Below, one piece after another: positions 12,503 through 36,275 of a stretch of DNA of 64,000 bases. Each line of letters opens with the position of its first letter. The stretch's first letter is position 1. Below the pieces are notes generated by a model, which was not told the DNA's origin, searched no databases, and saw only the letters and a program-made list of their open reading frames with translations. The position numbers and the translations under genes are program-made. Source of the DNA: an uncultured Nitrosospira sp. (GTDB lineage Bacteria; Nitrospirota; Nitrospiria; Nitrospirales; Nitrospiraceae); NCBI GenBank assembly GCA_900696515.1, contig CAADGK010000039.1:1-64000 (forward strand). The letters are read 5' to 3'.

Positions 12503-13531
12503 TTATTGCACTGGGGGAGCAGAAAGGAACGATTTCTGAAGCCCTCTCAGAACTTTCAAATCATCGCTGTCAGATTGCAATTTGGTCTTTTCCACCGCCT
12601 GAATTTTGTGGTTCAACGCTTCTTTGATTGTGACCCACTGTGCAGCATCAAGCTTGCCATCTGCTTGGGTGCTAATGGCGAATCCCTTTAAAGTGCTAGC
12701 ATATACTTCCGTTGGCAATTGAGGGTCAGCAATCACGGAAAAAGCATAAGAACTAAATTTCGGGTCGTAACTACTCAAGACATTTGCAGCAGCTGAACGG
12801 AGCTTAGGCTCCGCGGAAGAGTTCAGGAAAATCTTGTTTCTTATCATGGAGCGCTCGGAAGGCATGGAACCCAAAACACTGATCGCGGCAGTCTTACCCT
12901 CAAGCGAGCCACTGTTCAAGAAATCCATGACACAGGCTTTTCCAAAATTGCTTGCTGCCTGGGCACAAATTCGTACAGCCTCTGGCTGAGAAATCTCTGA
13001 TCCGATTGCAGCCTTGCGCAACGAATCAATTGCATCTTGGTCAGATATTCTTACTAATGATTTCAATGCCGGCAACCGGACTTGGCTTCTTGCATCAACG
13101 GAAGCAGCTTGGAGGGCGGCTATGGCTGCCTTGAATCGTTTCCTACTATAAGTAAGTGAACTCGAATTTCCGATCTCAGTTGTTGACATGTGTTGGGCTG
13201 AAGTTAATACAATCTCATTAGACAGAACAGCTACTGCCTCTTGTGCTATCTCTAGGGAGTCATCATGAACAAGGTCGCCTGCAACCCTGAGAGCTGATTC
13301 ATCTGATATCATTGTTAATTCAAGAAATGCTTTTTTCCGTTCCTGGACTTCCGCATCCTTGCTTGCAATCGTCGCTTCAAGTTGACTAATCTTCTCCCTC
13401 TGTCCCTCAAGGTAGGATTGGACTCGAGAGTCAGGGTTTTGAAGCTGAACTCCATCCTGCACAGCAATTGAGAGTCCAAATGGCAATAACCAACCAAACA
13501 CGGTGAAAGCAAAACTTGCAGGACGAATCAT
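12503..13531 (-). CDS. Secreted HEAT-like repeat protein, last gene of the cytochrome/tyrosinase operon
   Basis: A 342-residue protein. The N terminus is a signal peptide or membrane anchor (SFAFTVFGWLLPFGLSIAV), followed by a coiled coil (about 38-70). The rest consists of repeated helical pairs with Ala/Leu/Ser, such as ARSQVRLPALKSLVRIS, AVRICAQAASNFGKACVM and KLRSAAANVLSSY, typical of HEAT/Armadillo-like solenoids. It starts seven bases after the tyrosinase stop. Inference: a periplasmic scaffold for the redox proteins encoded upstream. No catalytic motif is visible. Confidence 0.6.
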   Translation of the reverse strand: MIRPASFAFTVFGWLLPFGLSIAVQDGVQLQNPDSRVQSYLEGQREKISQLEATIASKDAEVQERKKAFLELTMISDESALRVAGDLVHDDSLEIAQEAVAVLSNEIVLTSAQHMSTTEIGNSSSLTYSRKRFKAAIAALQAASVDARSQVRLPALKSLVRISDQDAIDSLRKAAIGSEISQPEAVRICAQAASNFGKACVMDFLNSGSLEGKTAAISVLGSMPSERSMIRNKIFLNSSAEPKLRSAAANVLSSYDPKFSSYAFSVIADPQLPTEVYASTLKGFAISTQADGKLDAAQWVTIKEALNHKIQAVEKTKLQSDSDDLKVLRGLQKSFLSAPPVQ

Positions 13532-13538
13532 ACAGATA

Positions 13539-14930
13539 TCACTCTAAGGTGTGCTTTCCAAAGTAATCAATGTCATCGTAGCAATATCCAAGAAAGAAAC
13601 CCTTTCCATGTGTGTCTAGGTAGTCAATCAAGCCACCCGTTGTTACTTTATGACTTTGAGGAGAAGGTTTGCCATGGGGGGAGAGAGGGCGAACCAGGTC
13701 GGGCCAGGGAGGGGATGAAGACCCCTGAAGCCATGGCCAAGTCTCATCCCTTTCGTACACGCTGGGAGGGTATTGCCCTGCATCGTGAGACACGCCCGGA
13801 TACCTACCTTGCGCTGAGTAGGCCAATTCATTCTGTGAACTGAACCTATCATTCGCTGCTTGCCAGTGTGCCCAAACTCGGTCAACGTTAGCATGGATTA
13901 GAAAAAAAATAGGGTCTGCTGGTGCCGCTGGACCTCCGAGCCATCCCCCTAACTTATTGTGCACGGCGGCATGAAAACTTCTCTCAATTTGGGAACGCAT
14001 AATCACATATGCATTATTGAGTAGAGAGGGGATGGAGGGGTTCAAAAGACCATTCTGGGGGTCATCGCTTGGGTCACGGATCAGCCCACCTAGTCGCGGG
14101 TCTATCCATCTTCCTAGCCCTTCCCCCGGATAGAAACCTTCGCCTGGTTCTGTGATACCCATAAAATCTCTTGTGAAGATTCTCTTGCTGGGTAGATCAT
14201 ACCTCCAATAAGGAATTGTAACTCTCGGGTCTATGGCTTGCAACCTACGTTCTAGATCAAGCAGGAATGCCCGATGCCAAGGCAGAAAGAGTGGTGACCC
14301 ATGAATTGGCAGCCCATCCGCTGCTTCGTGTAATTGCACAAGAGGGGTGTACTGTGAATTGACCGATTCATTCGCAACATCGTGAAGTCTGACAAGCGCA
14401 TCTAAAAACAGGCTGGACTCAAATGAAGTTAGATTCTCGGCATTCTTGCGAACACGAACCATTACGGGGAGACTGCCAACAACTCTTCCATCTTCAAGCT
14501 GTGCGACAATCGTTGTGTCCTTGGTGCCTTCCGAAGGTCTACGTCCTGCAACCCAAAAATAAACCCAACCATCAATGCTTTCTGGCACCTTTACTTGGAT
14601 TGCCGATTTGGGAGTGAACGTGGTTCGATGTGGCCGTAAGCCACTATCGGTTTGAAATTGGATTGCGCCTCCGTGATCTGTAGTTTGACTCGAGATATTG
14701 AGCACGCTCCCTTTACTGAGGGTGGGAGGTCTTTCGTCTACCACAATCCGAGCGCGAAACTTTGTTGGTGTCCAGCATATGTATTCGCCATGCGCGGCCA
14801 TCTCATCATAACTTTCAATAAGAACGGAGTCACTAAATGCACTATCAGAACCCTGAAACGTGAAAAGGACAGATCCAATAATGAAGCAGATAAGTCTGCT
14901 GAGCACATGACTGGCTGGATTGTCGTTCAT
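13539..14930 (-). CDS. Secreted tyrosinase-family type 3 copper protein
   Basis: A 463-residue protein with an N-terminal hydrophobic export signal (about residues 10-26). A beta-rich domain of about 140 residues comes next, then a tyrosinase domain (about 175-365). All six copper ligands are identifiable: CuA His201, His210 and His219 (IHGSPLFLPWHRAFL) and CuB His320, His324 and His346 (RSFHAAVHNKLGG, FFLIHANVDRVWAHWQ). Tyrosinases use O2 to hydroxylate phenols or oxidise catechols, and the class also includes peptide-modifying members. It lies 17 bases after the upstream operon gene. Secretion and coupling to a cytochrome c gene are unusual. The substrate is unknown. Confidence 0.88.
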   Translation of the reverse strand: MNDNPASHVLSRLICFIIGSVLFTFQGSDSAFSDSVLIESYDEMAAHGEYICWTPTKFRARIVVDERPPTLSKGSVLNISSQTTDHGGAIQFQTDSGLRPHRTTFTPKSAIQVKVPESIDGWVYFWVAGRRPSEGTKDTTIVAQLEDGRVVGSLPVMVRVRKNAENLTSFESSLFLDALVRLHDVANESVNSQYTPLVQLHEAADGLPIHGSPLFLPWHRAFLLDLERRLQAIDPRVTIPYWRYDLPSKRIFTRDFMGITEPGEGFYPGEGLGRWIDPRLGGLIRDPSDDPQNGLLNPSIPSLLNNAYVIMRSQIERSFHAAVHNKLGGWLGGPAAPADPIFFLIHANVDRVWAHWQAANDRFSSQNELAYSAQGRYPGVSHDAGQYPPSVYERDETWPWLQGSSSPPWPDLVRPLSPHGKPSPQSHKVTTGGLIDYLDTHGKGFFLGYCYDDIDYFGKHTLE

Positions 14931-14947
14931 GAAAGCCTATGCATTTT

Positions 14948-16150
14948 CTATCGGCCTGGCACAACCGCTCTAGTCACAGCACCTGCATTGCTACCGGCTG
15001 GTTTAAAGTGAGAAATGGTTACATCTCCCTGTACGGGAGGCGCATCGGAAATAAACCAGAAATTATATGTCGAGCCCCATCGAATGGCATTTGCCTTTGA
15101 ATTGTCTTCAAATCTCTCGGTGCTCCACGTAATCAATCCTCCATTAACTTTATGCTCCCATGGTCTATTTGACCATATCTCTCCATGTGCAGGGGCTGAC
15201 CTGAAACCAATACTACTCTCATCGATAACTGGAGCAGGAACCTTAAGAGATTGAATTGCGAGATCACTATTCATGTTGTATACCACATAGTCATAGCGAT
15301 ACTTGCCTCCACCCACTGGGTTTGCTTTAGAACCAATTATGATGTAGGACTTTGCCCTGCCTTCAAGAGTCTCAATTTCTGACAACTGAGCCCCATCTTC
15401 TTTCCATGCAGCAACTGCAGGTTGCCGCCTTACTTCAGCCGCCTCCCTTCTAAGAACCCAAGCTCCTGTTCTAAGAATAGGCTTGACTTCTCTATAAGTT
15501 ACGTTGTTCCGAGCATTGCCAGCCAACGCATCATCAGCAGTAATGTAATGTGCTTCCACAAAGTATCTTGCGTTAGAGGAACGCAAGTCTGCTTCCTCTA
15601 CCAGCATGATTCGTTCAGCTGGTCCACTCTCTGGGTAGCCAGTCAAATCTTGTGCAGTGCTTCCGTTAAACTCGCCTGTGGCTGGATTCTCAATCCGACT
15701 GCGTGGTCCAAGGTGACTTGTGTCTGCATTGAGGTCTTCCCCGTAATAGTCTGAACATCCTGGACGGAGTAGATTTCCCCCCGGGCCATCTTGGCATGGA
15801 CGTGTTACTTCTGGAATACCCTGGCACTCAAATCGATTTGTAGCGTAAAACGCATGCTTAACCCAAGACTGAGCTAGTTGTTCAATACGACCATTCATCA
15901 ATCTATAAAAATTCATGCTGATCGCTGGGTGTTTATTACTTGGAAGGCGGTGCCAATCTAGTGGCGCATCTCCGGCGTTGCAGGAGTTTGTCGAGGCTGT
16001 AAGGCCAATCTTCGTGCCCTTTCTACTATCTTCTCTCCCGTCATCGATAAAACCCACGATCACATCTGGACCTGCGGCTACGCCGATTGAAGTTAGGAGA
16101 CAAGCCTTGACAAACAGTGCAGATAATAGTCCTACCAGCATCTTGTGCAT
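14948..16150 (-). CDS. Secreted protein of unknown function in the tyrosinase operon
   Basis: A 400-residue exported protein with a signal peptide (residues 4-26, GLLSALFVKACLLTSIGVAAG). The early mature part reads DVIVGFIDDGREDSR. Several cysteines fall in the first 140 mature residues (SCNAG, FECQG, RPCQDG, GCSDYYG), which suggests disulfides. The C-terminal third (YDYVVYNMNSDLAIQSLKVP, then AIRWGSTYNFWFISDAPP) looks like a beta-sandwich. Similar C-terminal text is known to me from uncharacterised secreted proteins, but I cannot name a family. It begins 18 bases after the cytochrome gene, so it is cotranscribed with it. Confidence 0.65.
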   Translation of the reverse strand: MHKMLVGLLSALFVKACLLTSIGVAAGPDVIVGFIDDGREDSRKGTKIGLTASTNSCNAGDAPLDWHRLPSNKHPAISMNFYRLMNGRIEQLAQSWVKHAFYATNRFECQGIPEVTRPCQDGPGGNLLRPGCSDYYGEDLNADTSHLGPRSRIENPATGEFNGSTAQDLTGYPESGPAERIMLVEEADLRSSNARYFVEAHYITADDALAGNARNNVTYREVKPILRTGAWVLRREAAEVRRQPAVAAWKEDGAQLSEIETLEGRAKSYIIIGSKANPVGGGKYRYDYVVYNMNSDLAIQSLKVPAPVIDESSIGFRSAPAHGEIWSNRPWEHKVNGGLITWSTERFEDNSKANAIRWGSTYNFWFISDAPPVQGDVTISHFKPAGSNAGAVTRAVVPGR

Positions 16151-16168
16151 GTACCACCTCCATAGTTT

Positions 16169-18235
16169 TCAATGAACGTCCACAAGCAAGACATGATCCA
16201 CGCTGCTGTGCTTGTCCACGCTCTGATCGAATGAGTACCTCTTGGCAACAATTCTAATCAAGTATCTCTTGCCCTGAGATGCAGGAAAGTCAATACGATA
16301 GGAGCGAGGTGACGATGCCGGGGCTGGATCGGTCCATTTTTGATGCCCAGCAAAAGAGATGTCTTTGAGAATTAGCAAACGTCCGTCCGTATATACTCCC
16401 GGGGATATTTCGATAGCAGCGAGCCCTTTCGTTTCTTCAATGGTCGGGTATTCCTCAGGTCTCGGTCGTGCGCCATCAGAAGAAACGTCAGATTCCAAGA
16501 TGGCCATATTAAATCGCACGTCATCTCTCTCAGGAACACCACCCAGAGAATTTAAATATTGCCACTTGACACTAACTTCTTTAGGCATCTCTCCAATAGA
16601 TCCTTCTCTATTGTCAACAACGGCAAAAGTTAGACTTTCTGGTCCGGCAGAATCAGCGAGGCGCGTTTCGTCTGTCTCGCCTGATTCTGGGGCAGGGGCC
16701 CCAGTATAAAGCTTCAGTGATCTAGGATCAGATTCTGCATTGAGAAGAGCATTGCTAAGCTTGGCCCAATCGTCATCGCTCATAATCGGTGGGGGAGGTT
16801 CGCCAGAAATGTCGTTACCAGTTGGCGCTAGACTCATCCATGGATGAATCTTTCCATTTCCACTCCGCAGCGCCCAATCTGTCCTGAAATTATTCTCAAT
16901 CGCCGCATCAGATCCTAATGAGCCAAGCCTGCCTACTGCATCGGAAGCAAATCTTGCCGTGTTCCCATTGGTAAGACCGTGGCATGTGCTGCAATTTCTT
17001 GTTGGATCAATAACTATCCGTAGTGTGTCAATTGTCGTCTTGTGCACCTCAGTATATGCGGAGCCAATTACTCTGTAAGGGGCTTTATGCCCACGTGTCA
17101 GCTCTGGCAATAGGCTACCGAGACTGAAAGCCTCCGCAACTTCTCGTTTACGATACCCTACTCTAGCCTGCTTGATATACGGTGTTATGATACGCGGCTC
17201 TTTGTTGTCATGACATTCGGCACAATTGATCCTAAATGTCGAATCGTAAGTTTTCGATGCGAGTTTTCTCCCAGCTTCATCCTGGTAACCAGCACCTCCG
17301 GGCGGTACGATCGGAGAGTCCCACGTGAATTTCATCCCTTCATAAGTTCCGTCAAAAAAGGCAACCTCGCCAGAGATGCGGTTAAAGCCAATATAGCCAA
17401 CAAGCTCAAAAGAAGGATTTGAATGAGTCCAATACTCATCGACCTCCAATGGAGTAACCCCTTTAGCTTTCCGGGCTAGTGCTATCCACTCAACATTTCC
17501 TTTGACTATTCGAGAAATTCTAGAAGCCGTTCCGCACGGGGTAACACCACCTGCGAGGGAGGGTTTGTCACAACGTTCAATGCGGGTGGTCCATTTTACA
17601 AAATTCCCCTGCATATCACGATGCTCAAATTCCAATGGTCTTCCAGGCTTTGACGTATTCGGCTTCAACTCGACTCGATTTCCTTCCACCTCAACAAACA
17701 GTTCCCCTGTTTCGATGATGGAACCATCCGTTCTAGTGAATCTCCCTAACTTGGTCACGTCGAAAGGAGGAATTGGACCGAAAACCGAGCGAACCTCATC
17801 TGCAAACTTCAAATTGATGTCAGATTCTTTAGCGGCAGGTGCCCAAAAAATATTTCCATTCCATCTCGAAATGTTCTGAGCCATATTTTCAAAATGAGGC
17901 GTCCGTGGATTTCTGCTCAGAATTTGTAGCCGAAATGCTTCCTCGTTGAGATGGCTAATCTCATCCGCTAGCTGCTTTAGTTGACCTTTCTTTTTTTGGA
18001 TTTCCGATTGTCTTTGCAGATACTCTGATACCCCTTGCGCATCTCTTTGGAAACCCTCTGTAACAGGCATAGGCTTCTTACTAGCAAACGCACCTGACAG
18101 GGCATGCTCATGCTTCGTAAGGTGTTTATCGGGGGCAGAACGGTCGGGGTTTATTGGCAAGCCAGTATTGTGAGTGTTTCTTGATGCACCAAGGCTCAGG
18201 ACACAGCACACCACTACCGGTATTAATCGTTTCAT
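16169..18235 (-). CDS. Periplasmic diheme cytochrome c-like protein
   Basis: A 688-residue exported protein, first gene of the four-gene operon. A signal peptide (LIPVVVCCVLSLGAS) precedes a coiled coil (about residues 75-105). Two CXXCH heme-binding motifs are present: CAECH near residue 338 and CSTCH near residue 414. The large region before the hemes holds a beta-rich domain and the C terminus another. Most small cytochromes are far shorter, so the hemes sit inside a larger enzyme or binding protein. Inference: an electron-transfer partner of the neighbouring tyrosinase or of the divergent diiron protein. A different role is possible. Confidence 0.75.
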   Translation of the reverse strand: MKRLIPVVVCCVLSLGASRNTHNTGLPINPDRSAPDKHLTKHEHALSGAFASKKPMPVTEGFQRDAQGVSEYLQRQSEIQKKKGQLKQLADEISHLNEEAFRLQILSRNPRTPHFENMAQNISRWNGNIFWAPAAKESDINLKFADEVRSVFGPIPPFDVTKLGRFTRTDGSIIETGELFVEVEGNRVELKPNTSKPGRPLEFEHRDMQGNFVKWTTRIERCDKPSLAGGVTPCGTASRISRIVKGNVEWIALARKAKGVTPLEVDEYWTHSNPSFELVGYIGFNRISGEVAFFDGTYEGMKFTWDSPIVPPGGAGYQDEAGRKLASKTYDSTFRINCAECHDNKEPRIITPYIKQARVGYRKREVAEAFSLGSLLPELTRGHKAPYRVIGSAYTEVHKTTIDTLRIVIDPTRNCSTCHGLTNGNTARFASDAVGRLGSLGSDAAIENNFRTDWALRSGNGKIHPWMSLAPTGNDISGEPPPPIMSDDDWAKLSNALLNAESDPRSLKLYTGAPAPESGETDETRLADSAGPESLTFAVVDNREGSIGEMPKEVSVKWQYLNSLGGVPERDDVRFNMAILESDVSSDGARPRPEEYPTIEETKGLAAIEISPGVYTDGRLLILKDISFAGHQKWTDPAPASSPRSYRIDFPASQGKRYLIRIVAKRYSFDQSVDKHSSVDHVLLVDVH

Positions 18236-18665
18236 CTAATAAAGCCTCCATTGCAAGATGGCCAGCTTGACAAGCGCCTACTCATGTTTCAAGAAACTAA
18301 GAAACGAATAAAATTTAGTATCGGTTCTTATGTCTGAGGTGGCAAGGTACAAAAACCTCGGGCATTATTCAATATGTACCGAGAAGAAAATGATCTACCC
18401 GGACTAAATGCTTCAGTGAGTACAGCATGCTGACCCATCATTGGACTCTACTCCGTCAATATCTGAAAAATGGCCACGACCTTTGGGCGACATATGTTTG
18501 GATCACATATGGTCATACCGAACTACGTCCTTTTGACAAAGTTCTATCTTTAGGGCAAAAATGCTTACCCTGATATGACATCATGGTGTCCGCAATGTGT
18601 GAAACGGGATCACACATTCCACTTTTTACTATGTTGCCGAGCAATACCCCAAAAAGGAGGGTTTC
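18236..18665 (+). promoter_or_regulatory. Divergent control region of the cytochrome and peptide/diiron units
   Basis: This 430-base A+T-rich region separates two divergent transcription units, so it must hold both promoters. Two CATATG palindromes lie at 18491-18496 and 18506-18511, 15 bases apart. A TTGACA hexamer is at 18533-18538 without a convincing -10 box. A long inverted repeat at 18594-18618 is listed separately. I see no other gene in it. Confidence 0.5.
18594..18618 (+). promoter_or_regulatory. Perfect inverted repeat, candidate operator
   Basis: AATGTGTGA (18594-18602) and TCACACATT (18610-18618) form a perfect 9-base inverted repeat separated by seven bases. It lies 47 bases before the start of the 66-residue gene, a typical place for a dimeric repressor or activator site, though an mRNA hairpin is also possible. 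TGTGA/TCACA half-sites resemble those of the CRP/FNR superfamily, but the seven-base spacing differs slightly from the usual six. Confidence 0.5.
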
Positions 18666-18866
18666 ATGAAGGAATCGAAGTGCGTAAAGACAGAAGTTAT
18701 TTTCACCCACAAGGATAGTGGAGGCCAAGAGGTTCGTCTGACCGGTATATCCCCTGACTTCTTGACTCGCCCAGAACAGATTAGAAAGGTGATGGAGTTA
18801 CTGAACCTCCCTCAGGGGACAGTCGCGAGATTTTTACACACAACCGAGGATGTCATAGTTCGTTAA
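18666..18866 (+). CDS. 66-residue peptide upstream of a heme-oxygenase-like diiron protein
   Basis: A small protein with an excellent ribosome-binding site (AAGGAGG six to seven bases before ATG 18666), which supports that it is real. It is charged and has a predicted C-terminal helical half (PEQIRKVMELLNLPQGTVARFL). It holds a single Cys at residue 6 and has no signal peptide. The gene sits 11 bases before the 530-residue gene, so the two are almost certainly cotranscribed. Possible roles are substrate or leader peptide for the enzyme, a small subunit, or a regulator. I recognise no family. Confidence 0.65.
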   Translation: MKESKCVKTEVIFTHKDSGGQEVRLTGISPDFLTRPEQIRKVMELLNLPQGTVARFLHTTEDVIVR

Positions 18867-18877
18867 GGAATGTCTCG

Positions 18878-20470
18878 ATGCTCCCCATCAATGGGTATCT
18901 ACGCGACTCCGTTTCAGTGGAGTGGGTTCCATCTGGCGTGGAATTGAGATTTTCGGTGTGGAGCATCGAACTTCCATCAAGTGTTCTTGAAGACAATCCA
19001 AACCTTGTAAGATTTTTCCAAAGACAACTTTCATCATCTGACTTGGTAGGCCTACCGGAGCAGGCTCAGAACTTGATTGCCCTTTTGGGATACCAAGGAT
19101 GCCTTATCCCTAAAATTACGAAATCACAGTATGAACTACGTGAAGTCAAGCTCCAGAATGTGTCTTTTTGCAATGAAATGTATGGGATCTATTACGCGCA
19201 TCCATTATGGAAAGTAATGAGAGGAGACAGCATTCCCAGAACAATAATCACGCAGTGGATATCTCGGACGCATTTTTTATCGAGATTCGCAGGGGTGACC
19301 GCATCTGCCGCTAGTGCCAATAGCAGTTTGGTCAAAGTAAAGGCGGCATTTCTGAAGAGTTCGATAGAAGAATACTCACATTTCCAAGACTATTATGCCC
19401 TGCCGAGAACACTCTTTCCTCTAACCAACGGATTCACTGCTGGAGTTGCCCCGTTGGCTAGCTTTGTTGCTTTTGACTACCAGATGCTTCGAATCGCAAA
19501 GAAGGATTGGCTAGCACACACATGTGTCGCCCTGTTTCAGGAGCGAACTGCCAGTTTCTCGGAGAGTGCTAATAAACTGTATTCTCGGGTGGAGAGCCAA
19601 CTTGGAATGCCGGGGCTCTTAGATGGTTGGCGTACTCACATCTCTTTTGATGAAAGTAATTCACACGAACGAGATCTTGAAGTTCTATTTGACCAGGATC
19701 TTTCTCTCTCACTTGAACAAATCCAGGAGTCTTTCAATGAGGCTGCGCTGACGATTCACTTGTTGATGGACGGTCTTGACGATGTGCTGAAACTTGGGAA
19801 GCAGGGGATAGATCCGAGAGCGAATGCCTTTTCCTTGACGCTTGAGAGACCCAATATGCAAGGAATTGAGAGCCTGTCAGCGGTTTCTCGCCATCAACTC
19901 AAGTCGCGAACTAGCAGCGAAGTTTCAGCTGAGTTGTCTGAATTGATTGCAAGCACTCCGCCGGGATGTGAATTCCTTATGAATGCCTCGGGCTTCTTGC
20001 TTTCTCAGTTCGCGAAATCTTTCGTAGGCCTCGCCCTTGAATGCCTCGCGAACTGTGATACACGAGTAGAGATCACTTGTATTGGCAAAGTGCTTCATGC
20101 CGCTTCAGTGTTTGAAGTACAGTTATCTGGAGACAAGAGACGTAAAAACATTGGGGGCCGAGTTATCCAAAATCATCTATTTCGTCATGCCAAATCGCCA
20201 AAAAGGTTTGCATCATCTGCATTGCTCTATATTCGTCTCATTCAGGTAGGCTTTCGACTCCTAGGACACCCTGTTCCACTTGCAGGGTTTCCCCCTCTCC
20301 TCGAAGCTCTCGAGTCAGCCGTAAGAGATCTCGAAGCTCAAGAGGCCATTGTTGAGAAGGTCAATGATGCCATTGGCACTATTGAATTAATGGAATACGC
20401 ATTTCAAAAGAGTAAGACCGAATGGCCCTGTTTTCGAATCGCGGTCGGTCAAAACGCGCTAATCGACTGA
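18878..20470 (+). CDS. Heme-oxygenase-like (TenA/PqqC-fold) putative diiron oxidase with extra domains
   Basis: A 530-residue cytosolic protein with three regions. Residues 1-95 look like a winged-helix or RRE-like domain (LIALLGYQGCLI). Residues about 100-275 fit the heme-oxygenase-like fold of TenA, PqqC and the HDO diiron oxidases: HPLWKVMRGDSIPRTIITQW, then EEYSH (Glu165, His168), FQERT (Glu222) and HISFD (His254, Asp258), plus His263. These residues match the ligand pattern of HDO enzymes such as UndA. Residues 280-530 match nothing I know. Inference: it oxidises a small molecule or the neighbouring peptide. Start ATG 18878 has GGAATG-like spacing only. Confidence 0.6.
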   Translation: MLPINGYLRDSVSVEWVPSGVELRFSVWSIELPSSVLEDNPNLVRFFQRQLSSSDLVGLPEQAQNLIALLGYQGCLIPKITKSQYELREVKLQNVSFCNEMYGIYYAHPLWKVMRGDSIPRTIITQWISRTHFLSRFAGVTASAASANSSLVKVKAAFLKSSIEEYSHFQDYYALPRTLFPLTNGFTAGVAPLASFVAFDYQMLRIAKKDWLAHTCVALFQERTASFSESANKLYSRVESQLGMPGLLDGWRTHISFDESNSHERDLEVLFDQDLSLSLEQIQESFNEAALTIHLLMDGLDDVLKLGKQGIDPRANAFSLTLERPNMQGIESLSAVSRHQLKSRTSSEVSAELSELIASTPPGCEFLMNASGFLLSQFAKSFVGLALECLANCDTRVEITCIGKVLHAASVFEVQLSGDKRRKNIGGRVIQNHLFRHAKSPKRFASSALLYIRLIQVGFRLLGHPVPLAGFPPLLEALESAVRDLEAQEAIVEKVNDAIGTIELMEYAFQKSKTEWPCFRIAVGQNALID

Positions 20471-21787: not shown

Positions 21788-22690
21788 CTATTGCTGAACG
21801 ACGACCATTCGGATTTGCTTGATATATGCTTTGCCGAGATGATTCTCGATGACCTTGAATGCTGACGTGCCCGATAAAGTGTGCATCATCGAGTGATGGA
21901 CTGACAAGACCGCGTCTTGCAGTTTTGGGTCAGTCTCTAACTGCTCAACAACCAACCCCATTTCACGACACTTTTCTGCATTCAAATGGCGAGCGTGGGA
22001 TAGCGTTAGGGCATGATCCCCAAGCTCCTGCCAGATAACAGTAATCTTTTTCTCCGCATTAGGATCCCCCTGTAGCATCCCGGTACGCAGCCAACCCTTC
22101 ACTATTTGTTCCGACCATTGAATGGCCTTCAAGCATTCCCCGATGAGCGTCGGCCGGTAATTTGCGATAATTGGCTGCCACACCGCAGCCTTGGTTGGGT
22201 CATTCTTGACTTCATTGTGAGCCTGCATGAACTCTTCGAGAATGCCGTGAGCAGGAAGCCCGCCGAATTGAGGGTCGATTGGGCCAAGATTTGATTGCTT
22301 CCCCATCAGAATGGACTTGCAAGCGCATGAAATCATCGTCCCTCCTGACATCGCCAACTGGGGAACAATGGCTCGAATATCCGTTCCAAACATCTGTCGG
22401 AGGTAGTCAACGATAGACTCGACAGCCGCAACATCGCCGCCGGGCGTGTGGAGAATGAGGTCGAGCCCTTTGGAGCGGTCAAGGCGGTGGACGGTAGACA
22501 TCAGCCCGTTCTTGTCCTCGTCGTTGATCGCTCCTTCTTTGACCTCCGGCTTTTGCAGCCATCCACTGTAGTAGGCAATCACATTACGTTTCGTGAGATT
22601 AAACAATCGCTTCAAGTACTTGCGTCTGATAGTGTCATGGCCACTTCCTTCCGCCCGGATCTCGTCAAGAAGCTCGTTCCAGTTTGGCAT
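21788..22690 (-). CDS. Clp-fold serine protease (SDH/SppA-like) at the end of the BREX operon
   Basis: A 300-residue soluble protein of the ClpP/crotonase fold. LDLILHTPGGDVAAVESIV, then AMSGGTMISCACKSILMG and SNLGPIDPQFGG, are the blocks of the SDH/SppA-like serine peptidases; Ser115 is the candidate nucleophile and Asp139 and His81 may contribute. Unlike bacterial SppA it has no N-terminal membrane anchor. It starts one base after the 86-residue gene (TAG-G-ATG), which ties it to the BREX operon. Inference: an accessory effector or regulator of the defence system that cleaves an unknown protein. Confidence 0.75.
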   Translation of the reverse strand: MPNWNELLDEIRAEGSGHDTIRRKYLKRLFNLTKRNVIAYYSGWLQKPEVKEGAINDEDKNGLMSTVHRLDRSKGLDLILHTPGGDVAAVESIVDYLRQMFGTDIRAIVPQLAMSGGTMISCACKSILMGKQSNLGPIDPQFGGLPAHGILEEFMQAHNEVKNDPTKAAVWQPIIANYRPTLIGECLKAIQWSEQIVKGWLRTGMLQGDPNAEKKITVIWQELGDHALTLSHARHLNAEKCREMGLVVEQLETDPKLQDAVLSVHHSMMHTLSGTSAFKVIENHLGKAYIKQIRMVVVQQ

Positions 22691-22691
22691 C

Positions 22692-22952
22692 CTACGACTC
22701 CTTGTGGTCTTCGTTGCGAGTTACGCTATCTGCGGAAGTCCAAAGCAGCTGTTCGGCGTGAAAACCAGATGCCAGCACTCGAAGATTGCTAAATGCAGCA
22801 CGCTTACCCTCGTCCGATAGGCCCAGCATCTCGAACGTGTCCTGAATATCTGTATTAGTCAGGGTGTACTTACTCACGCCTTTCACTTGGGCCTGCGAAT
22901 TATGGTCACTTGTTCCACCATCCTGTTGTTGCTCTTGCAAACAGTTTGACAT
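22692..22952 (-). CDS. 86-residue hypothetical protein of the BREX operon
   Basis: A small, acidic protein with a Gln-rich N terminus (CLQEQQQDGG) and a helical C-terminal half (LTNTDIQDTFEMLGLSDEGK, then AAFSNLRVLASGFHAEQLLW). It lies 32 bases after brxL and one base before the Clp-fold protease, so translation of the latter is probably coupled to it. It could be a partner, adaptor or inhibitor of the protease. I recognise no family. Confidence 0.55.
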   Translation of the reverse strand: MSNCLQEQQQDGGTSDHNSQAQVKGVSKYTLTNTDIQDTFEMLGLSDEGKRAAFSNLRVLASGFHAEQLLWTSADSVTRNEDHKES

Positions 22953-22984
22953 AGCATTTCCCTTCTACACGGCGTAGTGCGCTA

Positions 22985-25012
22985 TCAGTTCATCCCCAAC
23001 GCCTTCATCGCTGCGGTCATCGGATCGGAGAAGAACACGGGGTCAACCCGCTCCACGATATCGCCGGAAACGTCTAAAAAGTTCCGCTTGTTTTCCAGCG
23101 GGATGAGTGCTTTGCGTGCGCCGTTGTCCATTGCCACTTGCAGCGGCTCGGCAAGGGACCGCATCGGCTTGATATTCCCCTGAATGCTCAGGTCGCCGAG
23201 TATGACAAGGCCGGCCTGGACAGGCATTCGCTTCAGCGCTGAGTAGATGGCTACGACTAAGGCGATCCCCGCCTCGCACGAAACCTGATTGCTCAAGAGA
23301 TCAATGGCCTCAACATGAAAGTCCGTCGTGTCAACCTGCTGACCGATCCCCATTTTCACCTTCTGGCCCATTAAATACGCGAAGGCACGGGTGATCGACT
23401 CCCGCATCGGCCCCTCGATTCCCCCGGCGACTTTCAGTTTGCCAGTTCCGGGCGAGCAACCAACTTCCAGCCTGTACAGCCCGACCTTCGCGTGATCGTC
23501 TAGCGACGCCGTGTACAGCGATCCTGGTGCAAGTGGGTCGAGAGAAATCATGTCTCGTCCGCCCTGTTCGGGAACGCCGATGAATCGCTCCTCCCGGGTT
23601 TCGTTGTCGATCAGGGAAAAGGATGTTTGATGGAACTCAAAGGAACCCATTTTCTTCAGCTGTTCCTTCACCCGACGACGACCTTCAAGGGCTAACTCGA
23701 TCAATTCGGCGACCTCATTCTTGGAAAGTTCCCCATTCGGGTAGATCAACTTGATCAACCCCGACACAGTTTTCCGCACCGCTTTGACATCACGGGACTT
23801 GAGATGCGACCCAAGCGAGAAATGGCGGTCCAGAACTTCGGCGAATGTGTGCTTCCGTAGTTCTCGAAGAGCCTCGGCCAGATAGTCGACCACAAAGCCG
23901 TAGTGGTTGGTGAAGAAATCCACCTTCATCTTCGGCATCTCCCAGCCTGGGATGTAGAAGTGTATCCGGTCGAGAAAGGCCATGTCCTCACGGATCACAT
24001 CGGGCATCGGCATGAACAAGTGCGACGAACGCACCATGACCTCGACGGGTTGGTTGGTGTTGCCGAACATGGCGATGGAGGCCATTCCCGATAGCGAGTC
24101 CTTCCCACGAGCAAAGGTGCCTGATTCGCAGTAGGTCTTGAGTGTCGTCACGACTTCCTTCGGCATCTTCTGAAGGTCCGCAACTTCATCGAAGCCGATG
24201 GCATCCCAGATACCGACCAGTCCCATCTTGCCGCTGGCCATATTGAAGAACAAATTGGCGACGGTCGTTGGGCCAGTGAGCAGAATCGTGTACGGCGACA
24301 ACTCCTGATAGCCATAGCTTTTCCCCGTCTCACGCGGCCCAAGTTCCACCAGATTGTAGTTGTTCTCGGCCAGCGGTATCAGCCGCACTAAGTAATGCAA
24401 TTTCTGACGGCGGCTAAAATGCGAAGGTTCAAGGCCGGTGGTACGCAGGAGAAGGTCGATCCATTCATCGGTTGTGAATTGGTTTCGGTGCGTCCGGTAC
24501 TCATCAAGATCGAACTTGGCCAGTTGAATTGGCTTTAGAGCTTCTATCCAGAAGGGGCTTCGCTTTCCGGTGGCTTCTTCGTCGTACTCGTGTTTGATGT
24601 CCACCTGTGCCCAGATGCCACCCATCAGTAAACGATCGAATTGTCGCAGGTAATGCTCCGGGACGTGGACGAACTTGTGGCCGAAGTTCTTGAGTTCGGC
24701 CCAATGCTTGTCGTCATCAGAAACATACCGCACCTGCACCTTGTCGATGAGGGTGTGTTTCCCCTTGTCCTTCGCCATAGACTGGGCCTTGTTTGCCTCA
24801 TCGGGCCGGACAAAGTTCGAGGACAATGTGTTGTTCACCACTTTCAATCCGGCGTCGATGGCCACGGGATCATCGGTGGCGCAATACTTACCCAGCAGGT
24901 ATTCAAGGACGAAGACAGGGACGTTCGCCCCCACCTTGACCTTGCGGACCAAATCCTTGCGGACTACTTTTCCCGCAAACACCGCTGCCGCTTTGCGATC
25001 TAGTTCAGGCAT
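22985..25012 (-). CDS. brxL: BREX protein BrxL (AAA+ with Lon-like C-terminal domain)
   Basis: A 675-residue protein, the last core gene of type 1 BREX. The ATPase region has a P-loop-like GPRETGKS and Walker B-like IGFDEVADL. The N-terminal part (RKDLVRKVKVGANVPVFVLE) matches BrxL. The C-terminal domain aligns with the Lon protease domain (SCEAGIALVVAIYSALKR, LGDLSIQGNIKPMRSL), but the Lon catalytic Ser (GPSAG) reads CEAG and the Lys of GGLKEK reads Ala. Structural work describes BrxL as an MCM-like DNA-binding ring, which agrees with a protease-dead domain. It starts nine bases after pglZ. Confidence 0.92.
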   Translation of the reverse strand: MPELDRKAAAVFAGKVVRKDLVRKVKVGANVPVFVLEYLLGKYCATDDPVAIDAGLKVVNNTLSSNFVRPDEANKAQSMAKDKGKHTLIDKVQVRYVSDDDKHWAELKNFGHKFVHVPEHYLRQFDRLLMGGIWAQVDIKHEYDEEATGKRSPFWIEALKPIQLAKFDLDEYRTHRNQFTTDEWIDLLLRTTGLEPSHFSRRQKLHYLVRLIPLAENNYNLVELGPRETGKSYGYQELSPYTILLTGPTTVANLFFNMASGKMGLVGIWDAIGFDEVADLQKMPKEVVTTLKTYCESGTFARGKDSLSGMASIAMFGNTNQPVEVMVRSSHLFMPMPDVIREDMAFLDRIHFYIPGWEMPKMKVDFFTNHYGFVVDYLAEALRELRKHTFAEVLDRHFSLGSHLKSRDVKAVRKTVSGLIKLIYPNGELSKNEVAELIELALEGRRRVKEQLKKMGSFEFHQTSFSLIDNETREERFIGVPEQGGRDMISLDPLAPGSLYTASLDDHAKVGLYRLEVGCSPGTGKLKVAGGIEGPMRESITRAFAYLMGQKVKMGIGQQVDTTDFHVEAIDLLSNQVSCEAGIALVVAIYSALKRMPVQAGLVILGDLSIQGNIKPMRSLAEPLQVAMDNGARKALIPLENKRNFLDVSGDIVERVDPVFFSDPMTAAMKALGMN

Positions 25013-25021
25013 GGCTCATCC

Positions 25022-27613
25022 TCACATCGAAATGGCGACATCGACCGCCAGGGGAGTCGTCAGTTCTGCTCCCGTAATGGCATCAAGCAGGTAGACCCCA
25101 ACCGTCTTCTGGGAAATCTCCTCGGACAGCATCACAGTGACGGTGTTCGGTTCGATTCGCTTGTTATCGCTTTCAGAAATCTTCAGCTTCACTTCCCCGG
25201 TCGCATCCTCAAAGCCATAGGAGGCGCTTACCGGCATCGACACGCACTTCTTGTTCGCCCGCAGTTCAATCCGCACCTTCGGCGGTTCAAATCCGAACAA
25301 GTTCGACTCGCTCTGGGTCCCAGCAATCTGCACGGAAAAGAACCTCGTGGTTAGTTTCGCCGTGCCGGGGGTCAACATCCATTGGATAGAGGTCGTCGGG
25401 GCAGAGATCTTCGCCGTCGACTGCATCACCACCACAGGCACGATCAGTTCTTGAGGAGATAGTCCCCCGTGGAAATAGGCTCGCCCGCCGCCTTTCGATT
25501 TAAAGACGGCAAACGTCCACGGAGTCGCGATGTCGAATTGGCTGTCCACGCCCAGTGATGCCAACGAGGTCCGCAGGTACGACGGCTCCGAGGTTCCGCC
25601 AACGCCTACCCATACCCGGCGATGGAGGTCTTCGACCTTTCCACCGGGGGATTCGATTTTCATGTCTTCCCCGATCTCATCGGCAAACAAGTGCCCGTGA
25701 TCGGCCACCAGCACGATGGTCTTGATACCATGGTCGGACAACACCCGCACTCCCCGCCGTAAATGGCTCAGCACGCCGTCGATCTGCAATCGGGCTTGGG
25801 CCAGGTTGTCGGCCTCGCCCAGTTCATCGATTTCCTGTGAGGTAATCAGGATCAACTGGTTGGCTTGAATACCGTCTTTCACCTTCTTGCCGGGCTTGGG
25901 GAGCAAGTCATCTAGCTTGGCGTCGAAAACCGGCACGCCCGCATGTTCTTTCAGGAAGGCCACTCGGTCCTTGCGATCCTTGATGATCTTCCCAGCGACC
26001 TCCAACGCCAGCTTACCACCGCCGACACCGACCACCTTAGCCGATTCGTAGGCCCTCGGCAGCAGGGCCGCCATGCCGATCTCTGTGATCGTCGGCATCG
26101 TGCCGATGGCGGACTGGACTTCCAGCGTGAAGTCATCGGTGAGCAGCCGGGACAACTCACGAGCCATTTCGTACCGCAGGGCATCTACCCAGACGTAAGC
26201 CACCTTCCCTTGGCCCAAGTGCGGCTTCACCTGCTGCTCGAAGAAATCCCGCTGCCGCAGCAGCCCCTTGATCGGATGCTTGGCCTTGGCGAAATGGGTG
26301 ACGAAGTGCTTGGCCAGTTCGCTTCCTACCTCGGTGTAGCGCTGCTCGGCTTTGGTGATGAGCTTCTCCACCCCCTGATGCCCGTCGCCAGCGGCGAACT
26401 CGAAGTTGTACTTCCGACTCTCCATGTGTCGGTGGTGCGTGTCTAGCAGGCACCACGGCTCGTCGTCATCGGCGTAGGCTTTGACCAGAGCTGGAACCGT
26501 GGTCGGCGCGTTCTTAATTTCCTTGCCCACCCGATCCGCTTCCAGCAAGACCTCGGCGGCGGACAAAATCAGCGCCCATCGGGCCTGAATCTTCGGCTCG
26601 ATATCGGCCCAGAAGCGGGAGAGTCGTCGCCGTGCCAATTCCAGCAGGTCGGCTGTCGCCTTCTTGAGAAGCTCGGCTTCGACATGCTCCAGCAATGTTC
26701 GCTCAACACACAAGAAAGTTTCGTTCTCCTTGAGCGGTTCGACGGGCAAATCAAGCTGACCGAGGGCAAGCTCCTGCTCGGTCGTATTGGCGACGGCAAC
26801 GTAACTGTATCGATGTTCCCGGCTGTTTCTCCACATTCGGGCAAGCCGCATACAGGCATCGACGCCGCCCGTGCTGTGGGCGACGGAAACTGACGACAGC
26901 GACGACGGCCCCTGCTTCTTGAGAGCTACGAACAGATCGGTGGCGAGAACGTGACGCCCCAGCTTTACTCGCCAGTTGGACAACGCTCCGGCGGCGGGCA
27001 GTTCGATGTCGAAGCCCAATTGCAGCAGGTGCCGCAGTTCCTTCCCTGCCTCCTTCTTTTCAATTTCGTCGTCGTAATGGTCATCGTGCAAAAAGGCCAA
27101 GCCAACTTCCTGCGGATTGGCCGTGCCGAAGATCAGCGTCAGCACGCCGGTGGAAATGTCCTTGCCCTTGTCGGCCAGTGAATTGAGGTCCGCCAGCGAC
27201 AACTTGCCAGCTTCCACCTGCCGTTCAATCTCGCCCACCTGATCCTCGCCCAAAATCGGTTTGAGGGCGTTGCGGGCCACGACGGAGAGGCGGGTGTTGC
27301 AGGCCGGGGGTTGTTGCCGGGGCTGCATAACGACCCCGGCAGCGTCGAGTTCGATCAAAGCGCTGTGGGTCTTCTCTCGCTCGATGGGGACGTAAACGAC
27401 CAGCCGGGGCGGTTGCCCGTCGTCCATCAGGTGGTCGATCTCTTTACGCAACTTGAGGAAGCTGCCGTCGAATCGGGCCACAGTGGTCTTGGGGAGCGTG
27501 AGTTCCGCCGCTGCCGAGCCGTAGGCTTGCTCCGGGTCGTACCAGACGACCAGCCCCTTGTCATCGACCTGCTTGGCGATGAGTTGAGCGAGATGTTCGG
27601 TGACGACGGCCAT
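25022..27613 (-). CDS. pglZ: BREX alkaline-phosphatase-like protein PglZ
   Basis: An 863-residue protein with a PglZ domain of the alkaline phosphatase superfamily in its centre: VAYVWVDALRYEMARELSRLL (metal-ligand Asp) and IVLVADHGHLFADE (metal-binding Asp-His). PglZ is essential for BREX defence and forms a complex with PglX and BrxB. ATG 27613 overlaps the pglX stop by one base (TAATG), so I reject the upstream GTG at 27661 within pglX. The N terminus (LIAKQVDDKGLVVWYDPEQ) matches the usual PglZ start. Confidence 0.93.
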   Translation of the reverse strand: MAVVTEHLAQLIAKQVDDKGLVVWYDPEQAYGSAAAELTLPKTTVARFDGSFLKLRKEIDHLMDDGQPPRLVVYVPIEREKTHSALIELDAAGVVMQPRQQPPACNTRLSVVARNALKPILGEDQVGEIERQVEAGKLSLADLNSLADKGKDISTGVLTLIFGTANPQEVGLAFLHDDHYDDEIEKKEAGKELRHLLQLGFDIELPAAGALSNWRVKLGRHVLATDLFVALKKQGPSSLSSVSVAHSTGGVDACMRLARMWRNSREHRYSYVAVANTTEQELALGQLDLPVEPLKENETFLCVERTLLEHVEAELLKKATADLLELARRRLSRFWADIEPKIQARWALILSAAEVLLEADRVGKEIKNAPTTVPALVKAYADDDEPWCLLDTHHRHMESRKYNFEFAAGDGHQGVEKLITKAEQRYTEVGSELAKHFVTHFAKAKHPIKGLLRQRDFFEQQVKPHLGQGKVAYVWVDALRYEMARELSRLLTDDFTLEVQSAIGTMPTITEIGMAALLPRAYESAKVVGVGGGKLALEVAGKIIKDRKDRVAFLKEHAGVPVFDAKLDDLLPKPGKKVKDGIQANQLILITSQEIDELGEADNLAQARLQIDGVLSHLRRGVRVLSDHGIKTIVLVADHGHLFADEIGEDMKIESPGGKVEDLHRRVWVGVGGTSEPSYLRTSLASLGVDSQFDIATPWTFAVFKSKGGGRAYFHGGLSPQELIVPVVVMQSTAKISAPTTSIQWMLTPGTAKLTTRFFSVQIAGTQSESNLFGFEPPKVRIELRANKKCVSMPVSASYGFEDATGEVKLKISESDNKRIEPNTVTVMLSEEISQKTVGVYLLDAITGAELTTPLAVDVAISM

Positions 27614-30600
27614 TACTTCACCAATCCTTTCTGGCGAAGCTGCTTGCCGATCGAGGACCACTCGTATTGGCCTTCCATTAATTCATCCCAGTATTTCTTG
27701 GCTTCATTCCACGGAACCAGTTCCCAGAGCGGGGCGATGTTCAGGACGACACCATCGTTGAGGTCGGGTTCGAGATGCAGGTTCGCCGCCCGCCGCAGCT
27801 TGTCCTCGAAGTCCCGCAGTTCGGAGAGAAACTCTTCCTGCCGTTCCACCTTCTTGGCGAGCCCTTTGGCCTCTTTGCCGCTTTCCCCCGCTGCGGCCTT
27901 CTGGGTGCGAAGCGAATCGAGGCTGCTGGTTTCCAAGCGAATCTTCGGCTCAACGTAATTCATCAGCGCCTTGAAGAGCAGGTCTTTGTCGAGCCGGTGG
28001 TAGTAAAGCCAAATGGCGTAATTCTTCTTCGAGGATTGCAGCAGCCAATAGATCGGAGCCTTGCGCCGGCTCTTCGAGTAGCGGGAGATATGATCGTCCC
28101 AAAAACCGCCCTTGCCCGGCTTGCGGAAGTAGTCACGAAGTTCTTTAACGCCGAGAATCTCGCAGGCTTCCTTTTCCACGAAATCGGCTCGTTCCTTCCA
28201 AATGAACTCAAAGACTTGTCGCACCCTATGGATGATGTCATCGGAGTGTTCTGCATCATCAGGTGTGATCGAGTGCCAAGTGGTGGACCGACAATCTGAA
28301 CCGGGTGGAATTGGCGGAATTGGGGAGTCAGGACCCGGTAGGACCACTCCATCGGTTGACTTAGCTTTCTGCTTCTGCCAACGGCCGACGCATACGCCGA
28401 CGGAATACGACAAAATGCGTGCCCCGACATCTCGCAGCATTCCAGTCGGAAGTAATTGTGAAGTGCGGCGAGCCGAAATGATAGACTTTGGATGCACTTT
28501 GAAGCGACTGGCGAGCAACTCAAGTCGTCGATCTGCGATGTATGTCTTCTTCGTCAACGACCGACTCGCCCCGGACGCCTGTACCTCTTCATCAATGATG
28601 TGCTCAATTGGCTGTTCGTAAATAGCATTAAGATCTGCGATCTCTTCGTGAGTTAGCGCCCTTTGGGGGAACTTATCGGGGTGTTCCCCGCATTCACCGC
28701 AAAGTTCTCGGTAGTCCTTCTCGCTGAGTCCATAATTATGCAGCACTCGATCCTCAGCAGTTCGATGGCATCGAATGACTTCTTCAACTCGTGCTTCCCA
28801 TTCGGCAATTTCCGCTTCAGCAAGTTCCTTCAATGAAGGTAATACACCCGTACAAGCGAAGGGACTGATAAAATATCGGTCTGGCTCTTGCGTCGCACAA
28901 AACCCACGAATCCTATCCCAAATCAACTCAGTCGCTTTGGAAACCAACTCCCTGTCATCATCGCTGGCCTCGACTGTTGGAATTCCAGCAACGATTCGTG
29001 GCCCATAGTGCCTTGCAGCGCTGCCACTATGAACGGCGTCGCCACTGCCAACGCACATTTCAATGAAAAACTGTGCCAGTCGAGTGTTTAGAATGAAGGC
29101 GCATTCGAGAAGGCGGTGCTTAGGCGGGGTAATTGTCACGCCGTTGGGACTAAAGACACAGCCGGGAGGCAATACCCGTGCCGACAGGTTGCTCGTCGTT
29201 CTCTCCGTGTATGTTACTCCCCACTGAAAATACGCCGCAGAATTCGATTGACGGCGAGCACGGTCCTTCATCGACCAATCAACTACCAAGTGATAGTCGC
29301 CGTAGAATGGTGAATACTCACCACCTTTTGCGAACGAAACCCATCTGGGGGAGTCTCCGCTCAATTCCGACTCTGGGATTTCCCATTGAAGTCGCAGAAA
29401 AAAGTCGTCATCGCCGGTCTGAAGTCCTACAAAGGGGAACCCATAAACGGTTCGCACGTTCGTTGGCATTCTGAAGAGTTTACGCCAGCGGGGAGATACC
29501 CAATATGCAGTTCGATTGGCGGGGATGTCGAGAAATGATGCAAGCTCAGCTACGAATGCAACTTGACTCGTGCCTTGGCTGTGGAGCAAATGGCACACTT
29601 CTGCGAGAGATGATCCTTTATCTTCACGGGCCAACAAACTGATAAACAGAGAGCTACCACGGCTGGTTGCTCGTTTCTGTGCTGTATAAGCTGCAGCCTC
29701 GACGAGCGCATCGTCCAGCACGCCGTATCCAAGATCGGCCATGACATTGAGCGAAGCGGACACCCCTAGCAGCTTTTCCCTCCATCCTTCAAGCAATTCC
29801 AAAAAGAATCCGAGCCGAGATGTTAGAGCACCGAGCAATCCATCTTGCTCAAGAAGAATAACGCCTCGATCTACGAAGGCGGAAAACACATCTTGACTGG
29901 CGTTGTCGTAGGCTCTGTACAAATAGCTCCGAGAGGGAACCGAAACCTCGCCAAATGGAGGATTCATCAGAATCACATCATACCGCTTCTGGCAAACGTC
30001 CACGAAGGCGAAGCCCCGCACTGCGTCCTCTGTAAACAGCCGCCGTTGCAGCCGCTTGCCATTGTGGGCTTTCTCCGCATAGGAGCGCAGCGTCTCGACA
30101 ACCCGTGATTCGGCTTCCTCAAAGAATTGGTGGTCCGTAATGTCCGAGAGATCAAAGTGAGATGGCTGTTCGGGCTTCCCGGCGAGGCGATCCATCGCCG
30201 CCTGAGTGAACAAGAGCGGCTGGCCCTCGCGATCCGTGGCTTGGGTCGTCTCACGAATATACTGCTTCTTGGCAGCGGCCACGGCATCCCGGATCTCTTC
30301 CTCGATCTTGAGCAGCGAACCGGCTTCGCCAGCCAGCTTCATCTTGTCGAAGACGACCTCCACCACTTGACCGAGGACTTTCGGCTCAAGCTGGCCGACG
30401 AACTCCTTGAGCATCTGCTCTTCGCCCGGCATCGGCTCGGCACAGACGAAGTTAGAGCGGGTGATCATGGGCCGATCCTTCTTCAGTCCCATCTCCTGAT
30501 ACGCCCGCTGGCAACGCAGCCACAGAGCAAGGGCCGCAATCTGGCTGGCCCGCAGGTCAATGTCGATGCCGTGCAGGTTATGAGCGAGGATCAGCCGGGG

Positions 30601-31767: not shown

Positions 31768-31768
31768 T

Positions 31769-32590
31769 TCACGCTGCCCCCTGCGGTTGCGTCGCCGCCG
31801 CTTGCTGTTTCAGTTCCTTAAGTCGGCTCGCCACGAGGTCATCCAACGCAATACAAACCACCCGAATCGTTTCAACGGCCTGCTTCGCCCATGGAAAGCC
31901 AATCTCTTGCGCGAGGCCAGCGGGGTCGTCCTGCGAACGGTCAGCACGATGCACGATATCGTTTCGCCGCTTTACCGTTGCGTCGAGTGTTTTCTTGATT
32001 TCGCCTTCATCCCGGCCTAATTGGTGGGCGATTTGTTCCCAAGGATTATCTAGACCAAGCAATACGCCGGTAATGTGTATGCCTCGTCTGCCATTGAGGT
32101 AGTTGAAATTCAGGCTGGTGATCATCTTATTGGCAACAAACAGCGGGTCGGGATCAACGAGAATGCGGACAGCTTCATCAAGGTCGAATTTCAAGTCCTT
32201 GAATTGGTTCTTGAACGCCTCGTCATTCTTTGGAGCGAAGTCTCGACCTCGTAGGTGGATCACTTGCGGCAGGTTGTTCCGTAGCAAGATCGGGAGATAC
32301 GTTTCTAAGGCGGTGCTGGCCGTGACGACGGACTGACGGAGCAGATTGCAGAGTGCGCTGCGCTTAATGGCTGCGGGAGGTACCTCGGCCCGCTCACGAA
32401 TCAAACCCAAGAAGATTTCGTTATAGATGACCATTAAGCTCTCGCCATCTTCGGCCTTGACGATCTCTCGCAGTGACTTCAAGAGTGCGTCTTCGGTATT
32501 GAGGGCATCGTGCTCCAGTAGACGAAAAACCTTGAGCAGCAGGTCTGCCGGCCGGATGTTGTCTTCGAAAACCTGGCGGGGGCTGAGCAT
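31769..32590 (-). CDS. HEPN-like domain protein inside the BREX operon
   Basis: A 273-residue soluble, mainly helical protein. In the C-terminal half RRNDIVHRAD holds the R-x4-H motif (Arg209, His214) of HEPN ribonucleases and HEPN-fold sensor proteins. Its flanks (long helix before, Asp-Pro-Ala loop after) fit that fold. It begins three bases after the brxC stop, preceded by GGAG, and ends one base before pglX, so it is a fully coupled member of the operon. It is not a core BREX gene. Inference: an RNase effector kept silent until BREX fails, or a scaffold. Confidence 0.65.
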   Translation of the reverse strand: MLSPRQVFEDNIRPADLLLKVFRLLEHDALNTEDALLKSLREIVKAEDGESLMVIYNEIFLGLIRERAEVPPAAIKRSALCNLLRQSVVTASTALETYLPILLRNNLPQVIHLRGRDFAPKNDEAFKNQFKDLKFDLDEAVRILVDPDPLFVANKMITSLNFNYLNGRRGIHITGVLLGLDNPWEQIAHQLGRDEGEIKKTLDATVKRRNDIVHRADRSQDDPAGLAQEIGFPWAKQAVETIRVVCIALDDLVASRLKELKQQAAATQPQGAA

Positions 32591-32593
32591 GAT

Positions 32594-36259: not shown

Positions 36260-36275
36260 GCGAGCGTCCCTTTCC

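Follow-up and report, generated by a model that had tools for sequence, protein, structure and literature searches.

Within the 64,000-nucleotide stretch of DNA that we analysed (the window), ORF calls gave two adjacent genes on the forward strand, separated by a spacer of 11 bases. The first (18666..18866) encodes a 66-residue peptide, P0002, which may be either a substrate or an N-terminal domain that has become detached; the second (18878..20470) encodes a 530-residue protein, P0001, which homology to relatives places, very probably, among the heme-oxygenase-like dimetal oxidases (HDOs). A preliminary description of this DNA had placed both ORFs at these coordinates, and the calls bore it out. 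It had also reported a strong ribosome-binding site for the small gene and the 11-base distance to the enzyme gene; we verified this spacing and read the Shine–Dalgarno sequence AAGGAGGG (18654..18661, + strand) directly 5′ of the P0002 start codon. As AAGGAGGG precedes the ATG of P0002 and the AAGGA of P0001 overlaps the P0002 stop codon, the two genes are probably translationally coupled. No further clear gene follows P0001 on the same strand of the window, where the next genes are oppositely oriented. A perfect dyad with 9-bp arms, AATGTGTGA-aacggga-TCACACATT (18594..18618, +), lies 5′ of the small gene and between the divergent units, and is a possible operator. A sigma-70-like promoter match (TTGACA-18-AAAAAT; 18533..18562, +) is weak, with about as many matches found in shuffled sequence.

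P0001 contains the predicted metal ligands E165-x2-H168 (19370..19381, +), E222 (19541..19543, +) and H254-x3-D258, in agreement with the preliminary description. A sixth ligand-like residue, H263, was absent from that description. With it, all six residues of the E-H-E-H-(D/E)-H series are found in order, the last three forming an H254-x3-D258-x4-H263 motif (19637..19666, +) with the spacing of the subfamily described below. This third motif reads HISFDESNSH, with Asn261 at +7 and His263 at +9, and does not follow the canonical H-x3-D/E-x2-H spacing. The five-residue pattern also appeared in 3.2% of composition-preserving shuffles of P0001 when spacing was loose and in 0.9% when only ExxH was accepted, so the ligand motif alone is suggestive and no proof. 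The pattern together with the sixth residue appeared in 0.2% of such shuffles.

Database searches with P0001 gave no match in Pfam, NCBIfam, PADLOC or PDB sequences, and no relative in 395 genomes of the window's own phylum (matches of 15–18 bits were discarded as weak). Direct searches of plasmids, phages, IMG/VR and genome_contigs likewise returned no relative; the sole genome_contigs match (L043) was rejected, being a transposase of the IS type that matches ALFQER by chance. Comparison with generic HDO (Haem_oxygenas_2) profiles from the same phylum stayed at noise level. Among 398 genomes of another phylum, we found one relative, P0003 (626 residues, from genome G461, with a per-genome E of 2e-5), which matched P0001 by BLASTP at E = 3e-8. 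P0003 comprises two heme-oxygenase-like domains, matching Haem_oxygenas_2 (E = 5.5e-5, under the curated cut-off) and TENA_THI-4 (E = 1.5e-4, at the cut-off). A profile built from P0001 and both P0003 domains led to P0006 in genome G1181, which matches Haem_oxygenas_2 at 34 bits, above the cut-off. P0006 in turn led to proteins on Rhizobium etli and Robbsia plasmids, and these to proteins of Tistrella and Rhodococcus. Most of the profile relatives match PF14518, the Pfam family of heme-oxygenase-like iron enzymes.

We then compared P0001 with a profile of eight HDO domains of the family from which P0001 and P0003 were excluded. Residues 89–315 of P0001 (19142..19822, +), also covered by BLASTP, matched this profile in hhalign with a probability of 92.8%, E = 4e-7 and a score of 49.6, compared with a best score of 22.8 for 40 shuffles; the profile members were originally reached through P0001, which introduces a mild bias. 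Both domains of P0003 scored above P0001. All 13 domains compared share an ExxH followed, about 85–95 residues on, by H-x3-D/N-x4-H, and in none of the 13 is the canonical HxxxD/ExxH found at the third-motif site, the last histidine standing at +9 and not +7. P0001 thus very probably belongs to the HDO family, as judged from its sequence. The HDO fold that the preliminary description had proposed is supported by this homology, but not by a structure model: AlphaFold2 (AF2) run on the lone P0001 sequence, without an alignment, gave a pLDDT of 34.6, too low to show a seven-helix heme-oxygenase-like fold and neither showing nor contradicting it.

The homologous domain and the E-H-E-H-D-H ligand order are shared with the known HDOs UndA, SznF, BesC, AetD, CADD and FlcD. 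AetD, with ligands D76, H79, E140, H172, E176 and H179, resembles P0001 in its E/D-x2-H motif and in its E-to-H spacing, and has its last histidine at +7 (PMC10654658). P0001 differs from known HDOs in placing this histidine nine residues beyond the histidine that opens the third motif (+9), in the absence of a direct Pfam match, and in its additional N- and C-terminal parts. Because the last three ligands vary in spacing among HDO groups (PMC11363339), the +9 histidine is compatible with membership. The shifted histidine also offers a small test case of how far a dimetal site tolerates change.

The two flanking parts of P0001 are less readily placed. The preliminary description had proposed an N-terminal domain resembling the RRE peptide-recognition domains. 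Residues 1–88 (18878..19141, +) show, by eye, strands and then helices, a pattern that fits a possible RRE-like winged helix; the relatives also start with a winged-helix-like pattern of strands and helices, and winged helix-turn-helix models (HTH_47, MarR_2) weakly match P0008 of R. etli as well as one protein of Rhodococcus. By contrast, the hhalign score of the P0001 N terminus (15.5) was borderline, at the edge of the shuffle maximum of 15.3, and the PqqD/RRE Pfam models gave no match to the domain. We regard an RRE-like winged helix at this position as plausible. For the C-terminal 215 residues (316–530; 19823..20467, +), we saw no relative that shares them. The idea that they are a second, decayed HDO domain was unsupported, the family profile scoring only 13.1 there, which is no match.

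A small gene with a Shine–Dalgarno sequence was found upstream of the HDO gene in the relatives as well. A 52-residue ORF ends 20 nt before P0003, and in R. etli an annotated 67-residue CDS, ending in LMCG, precedes the HDO gene by 29 nt. In G1181, a 21-residue ORF ending in ATCG lies 60 nt before the HDO gene, with a terminator-like hairpin between them. The Robbsia gene is preceded at 80 nt by a 27-residue ORF ending in PVLIPVHL (L053:4429-4512) and the Rhodococcus gene at 84 nt by a 17-residue ORF ending in IVAVAVHL (L056:3853-3906), both with a strong stem in between. The 55-residue ORF of Tistrella (L057:1883-2050) ends in PVLIAVHL and is separated from the HDO gene by a gene for a TPP enzyme. 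The peptides thus share C termini, VHL in Robbsia, Tistrella and Rhodococcus and CG in R. etli and G1181, and the VHL endings suggest a defined core. The spacers of Robbsia, Rhodococcus and G1181 fold strongly, as expected of a layout in which a precursor is followed by an attenuator. The relatives lacked neither the small upstream gene, the conservation of which the preliminary description had proposed as a check, nor the ligands.

To set this arrangement against background, we applied one rule (an ATG start, a strong Shine–Dalgarno sequence, 15–110 residues and an end at most 100 nt upstream) to ORFs of at least 250 residues. Six of 120 ORFs had such a gene, and four of the six were the family members from the window, G461, R. 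etli and Robbsia. The rule therefore held for 4/4 family genes and 2/116 others (exact probability about 2e-6), in a control that was run after family members had already been inspected and that left G1181 and Rhodococcus out of the count, as they fail on Shine–Dalgarno distance and a GTG enzyme start. With these two scored as misses, the frequency was still far higher in the family (4/6) than among the others (about 2/114). It is likely that the relatives with VHL- and CG-ending peptides form a peptide-modifying subfamily. The VHL clusters of Robbsia, Tistrella and Rhodococcus each contain two or three HDO-type proteins, together with a varying set of aminotransferase, TPP-enzyme, transporter and GNAT genes. 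These clusters resemble those of ribosomally synthesized and post-translationally modified peptides (RiPPs), and we found no description of them.

We propose that the two genes form a stand-alone member of this little-described HDO subfamily, in which an RRE-like/oxidase fusion would oxidize the adjacent peptide, a reading to which we give an even chance. A small ribosomal peptide would be made first and P0001 immediately afterwards; the winged-helix-like N-terminal domain of the enzyme would hold the peptide in an RRE-like role, and a predicted metal centre, probably diiron, would use O2 to oxidize it. In the window, the peptide substrate would be P0002. The P0002–P0001 pair probably represents a type of peptide-modifying system that has not been described before. 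More tentatively, and with somewhat less than even confidence, RRE-like/HDO fusions that carry the shifted ligand motif and are each paired with a single tiny precursor may constitute a new RiPP class, spread across alpha- and betaproteobacteria, actinobacteria and the phylum of the window, with the VHL- and CG-ending peptides and P0002 as precursors. A precursor-type gene does adjoin the putative maturation enzyme, by position only. No protease or exporter was recognized beside the pair, which is flanked by a tyrosinase/cytochrome cassette and by BREX genes, with a ClpP-like protease gene also present on the BREX side; as many RiPP units lack such local genes, this weakens the RiPP reading without excluding it.

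The proposed system has parallels among known ones. RRE-dependent RiPP enzymes share with it the small gene directly 5′ of an enzyme with a winged-helix-like N terminus. In the PQQ pathway, the tiny peptide PqqA occurs with PqqC, a cofactorless enzyme of the heme-oxygenase fold, and with PqqD, a winged-helix peptide-binding domain. The window pair likewise brings together a tiny peptide, such a fold and such a domain, but P0001 unites the recognition-like domain and the enzyme in one chain and carries predicted metal ligands. No PqqE-like radical-SAM gene was recognized near the pair. VarO, from thiovarsolin biosynthesis, is heme-oxygenase-like and works in a RiPP pathway, as proposed here for P0001; it belongs to a YcaO/TfuA cluster, and we found no account of an RRE-like domain fused to it (PMC6511847). 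The Pfam-tested neighbours of the window pair (11.4–37.7 kb) included no YcaO or TfuA gene. In a literature search confined to freely available papers without supplements, VarO was the only heme-oxygenase-like protein found in a RiPP pathway (PMC6511847), and HDO fusions go unmentioned in the main texts of two RRE surveys (PMC7470986, PMC12710340). Functions are known for only about a dozen HDOs, almost all of which act on small molecules, with VarO tied to ribosomal peptides; the review that lists them cites the same VarO work for ribosomal peptide modification (PMC13108848). HDOs that bring along both a recognition-like domain and a tiny peptide gene would provide ready enzyme–substrate pairs.

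The role of P0002 bears directly on this proposal. P0002 has no sequence in common with the small upstream peptides of the relatives and lacks the VHL or CG ending. We saw no recognizable core and no leader/core boundary in it, and the preliminary description, too, had noted no obvious core or leader cleavage site. The peptide-modifying arrangement suggested there is matched by the relatives, which follow tiny genes with conserved C termini, but P0002 itself lacks a recognizable core and bears some similarity to the P0003 N terminus. It aligned to residues 20–67 of P0003 with a score of 48, compared with a shuffle mean of 23, a score reached in 2–4 of 10,000 shuffles; about 20–30 such comparisons were made, which brings the corrected probability of this likeness to about 0.01. 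This resemblance suggests that P0002 may be an accessory domain and not a substrate. P0002 would then be a separately encoded partner or activator subunit, fused to the N terminus of the enzyme in G461, and the enzyme would act on another peptide or a small molecule. Consistent with this alternative, AF2 on the single P0002 sequence predicted a plausible small fold of two strands and a helix (pLDDT 70), and the fused form in G461 also has its separate 52-residue upstream ORF, as expected if the peptide is a different one. Against it, the likeness is seen in a single relative at the corrected probability given above, and other upstream peptides (17–27 residues) are too short for domains. We consider this alternative rather unlikely. 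A Foldseek search with the P0002 model gave no significant match. Since the position and size of P0002 match those of the small genes of the relatives, we rank the substrate reading modestly ahead, and the chance that P0002 is the substrate of P0001 is about even. Action of the neighbouring tyrosinase on P0002 is unlikely, because P0002 contains no tyrosine.

A second alternative is that P0001 is a conventional HDO whose substrate is a free small molecule (a fatty acid, an amine or an amino acid, as for SznF, BesC and UndA), with the small gene a regulator or unrelated. Characterized HDOs mostly use small molecules (PMC13108848), the related enzymes of Robbsia are grouped with aminotransferases, a transporter and GNAT, and residues 38–59 of P0002 are weakly helix-turn-helix-like (IclR, E = 0.1); this last match was the sole support for P0002 as a truncated helix-turn-helix regulator, a candidate that we rejected. 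The small-molecule alternative is improbable, given that tiny genes with conserved C termini precede relatives across classes and phyla and that the relatives carry a winged-helix-like domain.

The GC content falls to 46–50% at about 12–21 kb of the window, below both flanks, and GC3 is 45% for P0001, 39–44% for the tyrosinase/cytochrome cassette and 61–71% for BREX or chromosome-like genes. The cassette is a divergent low-GC unit (12503–18235) encoding a HEAT-repeat protein, a tyrosinase, a 400-residue protein of unknown family and a 688-residue protein. On the other side lies a BREX set (21788–37704) of BrxL, PglZ, an Eco57I-type methylase, a RiboL-PSP HEPN protein, BrxC, BrxB and BrxA, in which the HEPN protein sits between the methylase and BrxC; the ClpP-like (SDH-type) protease gene is beyond BrxL. 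By eye, the first 10 kb of the window resemble a conjugative type IV secretion set. Owing to this cassette-like low-GC composition, the BREX neighbours and the conjugative-looking first 10 kb, the pair is likely to be mobile cargo. That the pair is instead a defence-island module, such as an oxidizing effector with a small partner, is very improbable: the pair adjoins the BREX locus, and that of R. etli p42f (L052:5750-10279) adjoins AIPR, DUF4420 PD-(D/E)XK, Z1 and DEAD-box helicase genes, but these are two cases only, both in mobile regions that collect unrelated cargo, PADLOC gave no match, and the composition of the pair is like that of the tyrosinase cassette and unlike that of BREX.

Two neighbourhoods gave further observations. 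The 688-residue cassette protein contains two CxxCH haem sites and was absent from the 78 further genomes of the genus that we searched; relatives of about 41–43% identity occur on Rhizobium and Sinorhizobium plasmids, and one annotated relative has another gene context. In G461, two radical-SAM genes, one with a SPASM domain, lie on the strand opposite P0003 and about 3 kb away from it (L046:2485-5464), and transposase genes flank the region. A 311-residue ORF without a Pfam match overlaps the end of P0003 (L045:2139-3071) and is aldehyde-dehydrogenase-like by eye.
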